From IMG/VR virus record IMGVR_UViG_3300042298_000794, positions 1 through 43,957 of that record: DNA of 43,957 nucleotides; one strand, given 5' to 3'. The notes below the pieces were generated by a model that ran no database searches, was not told the DNA's origin, and worked only from the letters and a program-made list of their open reading frames with translations. Position 1 is the first letter of the stretch, and every line of letters starts with the position of its first letter. Origin of the DNA: a virus. Made by a program: the position numbers and the translations under genes. Below, piece after piece: positions 35,165 to 43,957 of this stretch.

Positions 35165-35386
35165 CGTCCTAACGCAGTTTGCGGGGTTCGGACGGTGAGA
35201 CGCCTTGCGGCCACTGGGCTTGTCCTACCGTCCTACCGTCCTAACCTCTTAATAAAATGGGATAAAGAGGGGGAGGGGGAGGGGGATTAGGAAACTCTTA
35301 AACCCTATGTAGGACCAGACGGGGATAGGACGGCTCAAAACCCAGTCACCGCAATGGATCTCGCCGTCCGCACCCACTTAGGACGG
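35165..35386. other. Candidate replication origin: TAGGA(C) repeats and AT-rich core
   Basis: The 253-base gap 35125-35377 has no gene. The word TAGGA(C) appears four times on the minus strand (35167-35171, 35223-35227, 35231-35235, 35239-35243; the last two are exact 8-base tandem units CCGTCCTA) and four times on the plus strand (35288, 35310, 35326, 35379). Between them is an A/T-rich segment inside a CCTCTT/AAGAGG inverted repeat and a purine run with three G5 tracts plus a GGG, able to form a quadruplex. It lies between PrimPol and an RHH gene. Confidence 0.55.
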
Positions 35387-37444
35387 GGCGTAGTGCCAGC
35401 GTCTCTTGCCTGTCGCCTCTCGTTTGCGGACCAACCCGAGATCCTTGAGAATCGCGGCCACCTGCATCTGATCCGACCGGTTCTGGCGCTCCAGTGGCTT
35501 TTTGATTCCGTTAGTAAGAACGTCCTCAATCGTGAGCACATCACTAGAACGCCTGCGGGCAAGGTATTCCTCAATGGCACTACGCCATGGCGAGTCAATC
35601 ACGTAGTTATCATTCTCTTCGGTCACCTTGACTTCCATCTCAACAGGTAGCCGGTTAGTCTCACCTGCCCTGCAGGCATGTACAACGGCGGACCAAATCG
35701 CATCGCGTTCAAGCATTAGCGAAGCGGTATCAATTTGGTCCTGCTGCGTCTTAGTGGTCGGGATGACCCAGAAGCGGCGGTTGCCGGTTTCATCCACTAG
35801 AAACCCAGTGGTTTTATTAGTTGTGCCAACGATGATGCCACGCCTTGGGAATGACTCAACTTCCTTGCCATAGGGCACGCGCATTAGATCAATAGCCTGC
35901 GAAAGAAAGGCTTTTACCTGTCCGGCATGACGCCTACCTGTGATGTGGTCAAGCTCCGCCCATTCCATCATCCACGACCGATGGAGCACCATCACGTCGT
36001 CTTTGGTTGAGATGTCACCGAGTGCATCCGAGAAGAACGGGCCACCTAGGCAACCCCAAAAGCTGGACTTGTAGGCACCTTGATCGCCCATCAATACGCA
36101 GGCGGTGTCGTGCTTGCAGCCAGGATTGAAGGCACGCGCCACAGCACCGATCAGCGTGCGCTTGAGCATCTCGTCATAGATGGTCGGCTCTGGCAGCGCG
36201 GCATCACACGGCCGTAGGTAAGCGGTGGCCAGCCTGTCGATGTAGGTCGGCGCAACATGGTCAGCGCAGTGTTCCAAGTAAAGGCGCACCGGGTCGTATG
36301 GCTTCTCGCTTGCCACTTGGACCAAGCAATCAATGGCAAGCTCCTTGCCGACCTTGTAGCCCTGCTCTGCCAGCTTGAGGTAATAGCGGTCGACGCCTTC
36401 GATCACTTGGTTATCGACCTCGATCTGCTGCGTAAAGATGTTGAGCCTGATGTCGCCGGCATTGCGACGCAGGTACTCCAGCAACTCGGCGGCCTCTAGC
36501 TTTTGCGGGCTGCCGCCTACTGGCGCACGTCCACCAGGCCGTGGTTCGGGTTCAGCGGTGCGGCCACCAGCCTCACGCCGTATCGGGTTGGCGCTACGCC
36601 ATCCGTCTTTCTTGGCCATGTCGCCAAGGGTGCCGAGCGTGATGCCGGATTTCTTAAAGCTCCGCCATTTGCGTTGGCAGTCGCTGGGTTTGTGCTTAGC
36701 GGACTGCGCCGACCACTGCTCCCATTGATCGAGCAGGCTGTCATCACCGACGCTGTGAAGCGACATGCCAACCGCAAGCCAGTCGTCGTAGTCGTCAGCG
36801 CGGTTGGCATCCAATGCGGCGAGGTATGACCGCGCGCGATCTGCATCGCCCTGCGGGTCAGGCAGCTGGACTAGCTCGGCGCGCACCGGCTGCGGCTGCG
36901 GTCTGAGCATCCGCTCAATCAATCCAAGCGGCGCTTCTGCTATGTCGCGGTCGCCTGGCCCATGACCTGGCACCCAGTAGTAGCCGGTGGTTTGCGGGTG
37001 CGCACCGGCTACGACGGACTGGCAGCCGTTCCAGCGCAACTCCACTTGCTCGGCCTTGCCGTCGTCATCAATGACGCCGGTCTTGTATTTGCGCGTGGCG
37101 ATCGCATCCCAGTACTGCTCAGGCACGCGGTAGATGATTTGCATCCGGCCATCGCGGCCTGATTTGACCACCCAGCTGCGCGGCAGGGATGACAGCGGCA
37201 GATCCCACTCGGCTAGGAGCGTGCTGGCTGACTTGCCGTCGTGGTCCAAAAACAACAGACCACCAGACGGCACGCCGCAGCAAACACCAATGGCACGCGC
37301 GCGACCGCTGCTCAGTTCGGCCAGCAGCGCATCCTTATCAAGTGGGTTGTCTTGCCATGCCGGCTGATACGGGCGCTTTTGGCCATCAACAGCGACATAA
37401 CCCCAGTCGTCGGGCAGGCGGGCCAATTCTTGCTGCAGGCTCAC
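35378..37444 (-). CDS. PrimPol-VapE replicase (primase-polymerase with VirE/D5-like helicase)
   Basis: A 688-residue replication protein from GTG 37444. The N-terminal bifunctional primase-polymerase domain (residues about 5-175) has the metal motif 'GGLLFLDHDG' (DhD at 67-69), 'WVVKSGRDGRMQIIYR' and 'VELRWNGCQSVVAGAHPQTT'. The C-terminal VapE/VirE ATPase has Walker A 'LMGDQGAYKSSFWG', 'WMMEWAELDHITG' and 'VGTTNKTTGFLVDETGNRRF'. It likely primes and unwinds phage DNA. The start overlaps the RHH stop (GTGA). Confidence 0.9.
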   Translation of the reverse strand: MSLQQELARLPDDWGYVAVDGQKRPYQPAWQDNPLDKDALLAELSSGRARAIGVCCGVPSGGLLFLDHDGKSASTLLAEWDLPLSSLPRSWVVKSGRDGRMQIIYRVPEQYWDAIATRKYKTGVIDDDGKAEQVELRWNGCQSVVAGAHPQTTGYYWVPGHGPGDRDIAEAPLGLIERMLRPQPQPVRAELVQLPDPQGDADRARSYLAALDANRADDYDDWLAVGMSLHSVGDDSLLDQWEQWSAQSAKHKPSDCQRKWRSFKKSGITLGTLGDMAKKDGWRSANPIRREAGGRTAEPEPRPGGRAPVGGSPQKLEAAELLEYLRRNAGDIRLNIFTQQIEVDNQVIEGVDRYYLKLAEQGYKVGKELAIDCLVQVASEKPYDPVRLYLEHCADHVAPTYIDRLATAYLRPCDAALPEPTIYDEMLKRTLIGAVARAFNPGCKHDTACVLMGDQGAYKSSFWGCLGGPFFSDALGDISTKDDVMVLHRSWMMEWAELDHITGRRHAGQVKAFLSQAIDLMRVPYGKEVESFPRRGIIVGTTNKTTGFLVDETGNRRFWVIPTTKTQQDQIDTASLMLERDAIWSAVVHACRAGETNRLPVEMEVKVTEENDNYVIDSPWRSAIEEYLARRRSSDVLTIEDVLTNGIKKPLERQNRSDQMQVAAILKDLGLVRKREATGKRRWHYAPS

Positions 37445-37578
37445 TTGGACTCCTTGAGTGCCTGCTCCAGCAGCAGTCGGATGGCGGTGGCGCGGTTCAT
37501 GCGATCACCACGCCAATAATCCAGTTGCCGCAATAGGTCTGGAGTCAGGCGTATATGCGTTGGATGGCTAAGGCGCAC
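37441..37578 (-). CDS. 45-residue ribbon-helix-helix regulator
   Basis: A tiny gene from GTG 37578. It reads 'MRLSHPTHIRLTPDLLRQLD' and 'NRATAIRLLLEQALKESK', the strand-helix-helix pattern of CopG/Arc-type repressors. A stop lies one codon upstream of the chosen region, fixing the start. It is first in the PrimPol operon and sits beside a 36-bp palindrome (37595-37630), its likely operator. Such proteins bind palindromes as dimers and repress their own promoter. Confidence 0.75.
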   Translation of the reverse strand: MRLSHPTHIRLTPDLLRQLDYWRGDRMNRATAIRLLLEQALKESK

Positions 37579-37594
37579 TGGTTTCGACTACAGG

Positions 37595-37630
37595 CTTGCA
37601 AAGCGTAGCAACAGCTGCTACGGTTGCAAG
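37595..37630. promoter_or_regulatory. Palindromic bidirectional promoter/operator at the genome pivot
   Basis: CTTGCAA-N3-GTAGCA-N5-TGCTAC-N2-TTGCAAG is an almost perfect inverted repeat. It gives a plus promoter TTGCAA (37596-37601)-N17-TACGGT (37619-37624) towards the helicase-methyltransferase, and a minus promoter TTGCAA (37629-37624)-N16-TACGCT (37607-37602) towards the RHH-PrimPol operon. The untranslated leaders would be only about 15 bases each. The palindrome can also serve as the operator of the RHH protein. Confidence 0.7.
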
Positions 37631-37645
37631 TGGCTGCACACTGCC

Positions 37646-43375: not shown

Positions 43376-43957
43376 CCATCAGCAACGAGCAGTACCACGC
43401 TGACCCTGCCGTCAGCGCCAGTCACCTGCACGCAGTGGCCAAGTCTCCCTACCACTACTGGAGCCGCTACCTCGACCCCAAGCGCATCGCACCCGAGCCG
43501 ACTGCCGCTATGCGGCTTGGCTCACTGGTGCATTGCGCAGTGCTCGAACCGGGGGAGCTAGCAGGCCGCTACGGCGTGTGCGCCCCACGCAATACCAAGG
43601 CAGGCAAGGAGCAAGCAGAGCGCATGGCCGCTGCTGGCATTGAGGCGGTTGCCGCTGGCGACATGATGGCCGCCAACTGCATGGCAGACAGCGTGCGTCT
43701 GCATCCTGCTGCTGCCTCATTGCTTACCCATGGCAAGGCTGAGCAGTCCTTCTGGTGGGATGACGCTGCTACTGGGCTGCGCTGCAAATGCCGCCCTGAC
43801 TGGTACGACGGTGCCACGGTGGTGGATCTCAAGACCACCACGGATGCCAGCCCTGCCGGCTTTGCCCGTAGCGTGGCTACCTTCCGCTACCATGTGCAAG
43901 CGAGCCACTACCTAGCCGGCTTGCACGGTGCTGAGCGGTTTGTGTTCATTGCCGTTG
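43372..43957 (+). CDS. RecE-like PD-(D/E)XK exonuclease, N-terminal part (continues at base 3)
   Basis: The full protein is 264 residues when joined to 1-326. It starts MTISNEQYHADPAVSASHLH and has 'MRLGSLVHCAVLEP' (family motif), 'CRPDWYDGATVVDLKTTT' with Asp143 and Asp152-x-Lys154 as metal ligands, and the Q-x-x-x-Y motif near residues 176-180. This is the RecE/DUF3799-type 5'-3' exonuclease that makes 3' tails for Bet. ATGA overlap with the preceding gene. Confidence 0.9.
   Translation, partial: MTISNEQYHADPAVSASHLHAVAKSPYHYWSRYLDPKRIAPEPTAAMRLGSLVHCAVLEPGELAGRYGVCAPRNTKAGKEQAERMAAAGIEAVAAGDMMAANCMADSVRLHPAAASLLTHGKAEQSFWWDDAATGLRCKCRPDWYDGATVVDLKTTTDASPAGFARSVATFRYHVQASHYLAGLHGAERFVFIAV
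43841..43957. repeat. Terminal direct repeat, right copy (circular overlap)
   Basis: This segment is identical to bases 1-117 and lies inside the exonuclease gene. It should be removed once to obtain the circular sequence. Confidence 0.95.

Follow-up and report, generated by a model that had tools for sequence, protein, structure and literature searches.

A palindrome in a cyanophage-like genome as a probable early promoter in both directions that contains the operator of a small ribbon-helix-helix protein

Divergent genes around a 36-bp palindrome

The IMG/VR record IMGVR_UViG_3300042298_000794 is 43,957 bp long, and we analyzed all of it (positions 1-43,957; hereafter, the window). The window has an exact 117-bp terminal direct repeat (1-117 = 43841-43957), so the contig either is a closed circle or carries direct repeats at its termini. 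One gene, for a helicase-methyltransferase (MTase) fusion, is 80% identical in nucleotide sequence to gp40 of Synechococcus phage S-CBS3 over 2.2 kb, and the nearest PrimPol among isolated phages is that of Synechococcus phage S-LBS1. Given these two matches, a picocyanobacterial host is likely for this cyanophage-like virus.

From 5.7 to 37.6 kb, nearly all of the genes are on the - strand, whose ORFs there sum to 28.1 kb against 1.2 kb for the + strand; + ORFs predominate in the other arm. The annotated leftward genes are a ribbon-helix-helix (RHH) protein, PrimPol, clamp, terminase, portal, capsid, tail/tape measure, and endolysin; the annotated rightward genes are the helicase-MTase, a helicase, an exonuclease, RecT, SSB, dCTP deaminase, and a sigma factor. 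The main outward turn of gene direction is a 67-bp gap between the start of the RHH gene (37578) and the start of the helicase-MTase gene (37646). A previous sequence-only reading of this DNA had genes transcribing away from a palindrome in this gap, and both the ORF orientations and the annotated arms agree with that picture. The features of the junction are:

35378..37444, - strand: PrimPol-PriCT2-VapE replication protein; its start overlaps the RHH stop (GTGA)
37441..37578, - strand: RHH-like 45-amino-acid ORF of class R (strand THIRLT) with a GTG start; proposed autorepressor
37595..37630, no strand: palindrome, conserved in relatives, with two predicted interlocked promoters and a central operator dyad
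37596..37601, + strand: predicted forward -35 box, TTGCAA
37602..37607, - strand: predicted reverse -10 box, TACGCT (predicted start near 37595)
37605..37621, no strand: inner operator dyad GTAGC-N7-GCTAC, the proposed RHH binding site (from its dependence on the RHH gene and the match of classes)
37619..37624, + strand: predicted forward -10 box, TACGGT (predicted start near 37631)
37624..37629, - strand: predicted reverse -35 box, TTGCAA
37646..39904, + strand: helicase-DNA methyltransferase fusion (Pfam; S-CBS3 gp40 match), the first rightward gene

The overlap between the RHH and PrimPol genes is preserved in most relatives.

The 36-base element reads CTTGCAA-AG-CGTAGCA-ACAGC-TGCTACG-G-TTGCAAG, which is two nested 7-bp stems (14 bp of dyad) with one 2x1 internal asymmetry. 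No other nested 7+7-bp hairpin of this kind occurs in the 44-kb window, and this one lies inside the divergent gap; 3 of 60 Markov-shuffled genomes had such a hairpin anywhere. The near-perfect palindrome that had been reported at 37595-37630 is real. The inner dyad, GTAGC-N7-GCTAC, has a single perfect copy in the window.

The 45-residue product of the first leftward gene is a putative ribbon-helix-helix-like (CopG/Arc-like) repressor, although the fold call is indirect. It matches a PHROG family of transcriptional repressors (E = 2.5e-7). The window's own protein had no match in Pfam, and Pfam's RHH_1 was detected in 11 of 56 members of its family. In an AlphaFold2 model (mean pLDDT 82.5), an extended segment leads into two helices, residues 13-26 and 29-44. 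The Foldseek matches of this model were weak and were mostly RHH antitoxins, and a sequence search of the PDB gave no convincing RHH match.

Two predicted interlocked promoters

We collected homologues of the helicase and of PrimPol from IMG/VR and compared 109 distinct palindrome segments; other relatives were located by DNA-pattern searches of IMG/VR. The segments were aligned on the TA steps, so the invariance of TA is uninformative, and the informative positions are the last T of each -10 box and the flanking GC. A forward TTG at 17-nt spacing occurs in 97 of the 109 segments; for the reverse promoter, 93 of them have a TTG spaced by 16 or 17 nt. TAnnnT is present in 105/109 (forward) and 108/109 (reverse), which are the segments that retain the last T. 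Since TTG is conserved at promoter spacing, we take the outer arms of the palindrome to be two -35 boxes; the inner arms would hold the two -10 boxes, of the sigma70 type. A generic sigma70 consensus scan of the window listed neither promoter, because their -10 boxes match TATAAT poorly, so the case for the promoters rests on conservation. According to the sequence-only reading, the palindrome carries one promoter per direction. Its hexamers and spacings (TTGCAA-N17-TACGGT forward and TTGCAA-N16-TACGCT reverse) are exact, and conservation across the 109 distinct relatives strongly supports the two predicted promoters.

The predicted starts are about 36 bp apart on opposite strands. With so much DNA in common, both promoters should not be usable simultaneously. 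Bacterial bidirectional promoters are also symmetric DNA that RNA polymerase can engage in two orientations, one at a time (PMC12825309). Those promoters share one -10 element, and their starts are typically 10, 18 or 23 bp apart (PMC12825309). The window's palindrome differs in having two separate -10 boxes that are interlocked with both -35 boxes, and in the wider predicted separation of the starts.

The putative operator dyad follows the RHH gene

In relatives, the inner dyad has the form xTAGC-N7-GCTAx'. Counting a dyad if it was at least 4/5 symmetric, we found it in 68 of 74 distinct PrimPol upstreams with the RHH family (searched over 120 bp) vs. 1 of 59 without it (searched over 420 bp). 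The upstream of the S-LBS1 PrimPol lacks the dyad. Three close relatives (L156, L157, and L239) keep the RHH before PrimPol and have no dyad upstream; a rearrangement may have uncoupled the two.

Searches of IMG/VR with the DNA pattern only led back to the same protein family. The GTAGC pattern identified 78 contigs, and in 75 of them an RHH gene directly adjoins the site; the TTAGC pattern identified 24 contigs, 22 of which have a directly adjoining RHH gene. All 73 of the typed RHH proteins beside GTAGC sites are of class R ([IV]RL[ST]), and all 22 beside TTAGC sites are of class L (VLFT), so the class of the site matches the class of the protein in 95 of 95 typed pairs. The contigs without a detectable RHH are L436, which is cut by the contig end, L388, and L400 for the GTAGC pattern (3/78) and L460 and L462 for the TTAGC pattern (2/24).

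We also made some observations at the edges of this family. At the look-alike sites in L388 (1119-1152) and L400, which have no RHH, there are helix-turn-helix-like regulators around repeated CGCTAC motifs, and these sites look like the regulator operators or immunity region of another phage type. Upstream of the S-LBS1-type PrimPols (L163:2620-2840, which is S-LBS1; L294-L310; and L314) lie another RHH-like protein and, in place of the dyad, a repeated AGGGGGT/AGGGGTA element that resembles a direct repeat. These are possibly a parallel repressor-site pair. A scan of genome contigs found only distant PrimPols, and one contig (L473) also has the RHH and the dyad. This is a metagenome-assembled contig with a related PrimPol that is labelled as an uncultured beta-proteobacterium (CAIMHL010000448.1); it is perhaps a misbinned cyanophage contig. 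Finally, one relative has a second full site (L047:7290-7320; GGTAGC-N7-GCTACC, with a forward promoter) just past the helicase-MTase gene and upstream of a 369-amino-acid gene, which suggests a small RHH regulon in that phage.

The palindrome is very probably the binding site of the adjacent RHH repressor, as judged from these comparisons. That the RHH protein is the likely reader of the palindrome had been suggested from the sequence. Conservation, the dependence of the dyad on the RHH gene, and symmetric changes that accompany a residue of the protein's strand (described below) all argue strongly for this.

A strand residue and a half-site base change together

One position of the predicted DNA-reading strand aligns (by eye) with Thr8 of CopG. 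Across 72 distinct combinations of protein and dyad, its residue goes with the left half-site base x: arginine with G, leucine with T, and glutamine with C, with one exception (A). The right half-site follows well for the arginine and leucine classes (with a few TTAGC-ATAGC sites) and poorly for the glutamine class. Comparing related phages for compensatory changes, as had been proposed, showed that the dyad bases change symmetrically with the RHH class.

We mapped the RHH classes on a PrimPol tree of 58 rows, which came from a quick search and has L343 on a very long branch. The tree shows 20 class changes, no fewer than the mean of 19.5 for shuffled labels. Among independent pairs on well-supported branches, the left operator base changed together with the RHH class in 12 of 12 (sign test, p = 0.0005), and the right half did so in about 11 of 12. 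By class, the left half on this tree gave leucine-T in 7/7 and glutamine-C in 6/7; the right half gave glutamine-C in 3/7.

The RHH gene and its operator are exchanged as a unit between near-identical flanks. For example, when the window is compared with L014 in 40-bp blocks, PrimPol and the helicase are about 93-100% identical and the RHH gene and the left part of the palindrome are 38-57% identical. The identity resumes at the right half-site, where GCTAC is replaced by GCTAA. Six pairs combine an identity of at least 88% in both flanks with different RHH classes. The operator differs in every one of them, but these pairs are not independent, as all include the record L469. In the 33 same-class pairs, the left base is identical. 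Because the cassette moves whole, the two parts could hitch-hike, so the co-changes indicate linkage of protein and site and do not by themselves establish the residue-base rule, which rests on a few separate origins of the classes.

A further indication comes from a cultured phage. The RHH family is found directly upstream of three unrelated groups of replication genes (123 distinct RHH-upstream pairs): PrimPol-VapE (82 of 123), a family of about 792 amino acids (20), and a Zn-ribbon/Toprim primase-helicase-like family (15). The last group includes Synechococcus phage S-H1 (MK105819.1), whose host is Synechococcus WH 7803. S-H1 has an unannotated 45-amino-acid RHH gene (MK105819.1 14943-15077; L472:6001-6135), which is preceded by the palindrome CTTGCCCACCGTAGCCGCAGCGGCTACAGTAAGCAAGC, the sole such site in that genome. 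As in the window, the site contains GTAGC-N7-GCTAC and both predicted promoters, and the same RHH family lies directly upstream of a replication gene. Unlike in the window, that replication gene is of the unrelated Zn-ribbon/Toprim type and the divergent gene encodes an HNH protein. The S-H1 protein is chimeric: it combines a class-R strand with a C-terminal half like those of classes L and Q, and its operator is GTAGC. Thus, it is the strand and not the remainder of the protein that goes with the site. Together with the co-change of residue and base, this chimera suggests that the strand residues of the RHH protein read the DNA half-site.

Proposed mechanism and alternatives

We consider it highly probable that the palindrome serves as an early promoter in both directions and contains an operator, at which a CopG/Arc-like autorepressor shuts both of the overlapping promoters. 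Host RNA polymerase would occupy a single stretch of ~35 bp, facing left or right at any one time, and would produce either a leftward RHH-PrimPol transcript or a rightward transcript of the helicase-MTase operon. The RHH protein, encoded first in the leftward operon, would accumulate and then occupy GTAGC-N7-GCTAC, probably in the form of two dimers. This dyad takes in the TA of each -10 box, so the protein on it would cover these boxes and shut both promoters. The supply of replication proteins would be capped, since PrimPol and the helicase-MTase operon would both be under negative feedback. We infer the direct binding, the number of dimers, the repression in both directions, the early timing, and the capping of replication from sequence comparisons. 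Three observations weigh against this reading: L156, L157, and close kin have the RHH but no dyad, the glutamine class fits poorly on the right half-site, and the window's own RHH protein has no Pfam match. The RHH gene and its site resemble an exchangeable switch that controls viral DNA replication and regulates itself.

The sequence-only reading went further and had the repressor set the balance between the two halves of the infection. This part is not supported, since a symmetric operator that includes the TA of both -10 boxes should block both directions and a central, symmetric operator cannot by itself favor one of them. If one direction is favored, the cause would have to be competition between RNA polymerases, which is known at bacterial bidirectional promoters (PMC12825309). 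A single leftward transcript from the palindrome to the lysis genes, 32 kb away, is likewise conjectural.

Could the palindrome be only a divergent promoter pair, with the symmetry arising from two face-to-face promoters for one sigma factor and the RHH protein acting elsewhere? The conserved -35 and -10 boxes do explain the outer arms and, overall, most of the symmetry. However, a promoter has no need of the flanking GC or of the base before TA, yet the relatives either keep these positions or vary them symmetrically in step with the RHH class, and the dyad is nearly always missing from PrimPol upstreams without the RHH family. Also, in L161 and L143, the forward -10 box is damaged (TACGGA; another sigma70-like promoter lies just downstream) but the operator half-site is kept. 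We therefore view the promoter-only explanation as improbable. A replication origin or a binding site for PrimPol would account for why the palindrome always adjoins a replication gene, but not for its absence from most PrimPol upstreams that lack the RHH family (including that of S-LBS1) or for its presence before two unrelated replicase families. As the dyad tracks the RHH gene across replicase families, we rejected this idea, which seems very improbable. The idea of an RNA hairpin that separates the operons as a terminator or attenuator has almost no chance of being correct: a 14-bp stem-loop can form, but there is no run of T, an Rfam search of the window gave no match, both predicted starts lie downstream of the palindrome, and the palindrome changes in step with a protein residue.

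Another explanation shares the binding mechanism of the two-way repressed promoter and differs in the role that is selected. In an immunity or incompatibility cassette, the RHH protein of one phage would repress a later phage of the same class. The RHH class is scattered across the PrimPol tree as if shuffled, and always with its own operator, which fits this role. So does the behavior of CopG, as a cell with excess CopG does not let CopG's own plasmid become established but does admit unrelated plasmids (PMC5717011); class exchange in these phages resembles immunity or incompatibility types. On the other hand, general mosaicism at the junction could scatter the cassettes without such selection, and there is no sign of a standing prophage: we found no match to a tyrosine integrase in the window and 19 large relatives, some of which may be incomplete records. 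Overall, immunity as the selected role is rather unlikely. A more specific suggestion, also rather unlikely, is that selection to escape same-class repression of both early promoters drives the exchange of classes (GTAGC, TTAGC, CTAG, and GTATC) in these apparently non-integrating phages, between otherwise near-identical genomes and across the three replicase families. Given that no tyrosine integrase was found in the 20 records, we rejected site-specific integration, and a role for the RHH protein as a lysogeny repressor is unlikely.

Relation to known systems

The two-way promoter with a built-in operator that we propose is like the CopG-RepB operon of pMV158/pLS1 (PMC5717011), in which the gene for a very small RHH autorepressor that acts at the operon promoter is followed by the gene for the replication protein. 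In the window, too, the repressor gene is directly before a replication gene (with the GTGA overlap, from which we infer co-transcription), and the proposed operator overlaps the operon's promoter, as the TA of the reverse -10 box falls within the dyad. In pMV158, a single promoter is regulated and an antisense RNA is also involved (PMC5717011), whereas the operator proposed here lies in a two-way promoter that would also serve the helicase-MTase operon.

The immI region of phage P22 encodes Arc and Mnt, which are phage RHH repressors that act at closely packed divergent promoters and whose specificity is set by strand residues. immI controls an antirepressor, and P22 is temperate. The arrangement proposed here is similar in combining an RHH repressor with divergent promoters, but it would control a replication operon, and no integrase was found in the window or the 19 relatives. 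This also sets it apart from the lysogeny switch of lambdoid phages (the cI/cro operator). We found no description of a cyanophage RHH-palindrome module in the literature that we searched.

Our proposal amounts to a short rule by which a large, little-studied group of PrimPol phages would control its early genes. It also offers a natural code for RHH proteins and operators, in which a single strand residue tracks a single half-site base in over 100 pairs from the wild. The unannotated 45-amino-acid regulator of the cultured phage S-H1 makes a case of this module accessible at the bench. How one repressor controls a fully overlapping two-way promoter is one question that this raises; another is whether RHH-operator cassettes decide which related phages share a cell. 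If the immunity interpretation is true, then the RHH protein of the first phage would repress both early promoters of a later phage of the same class.
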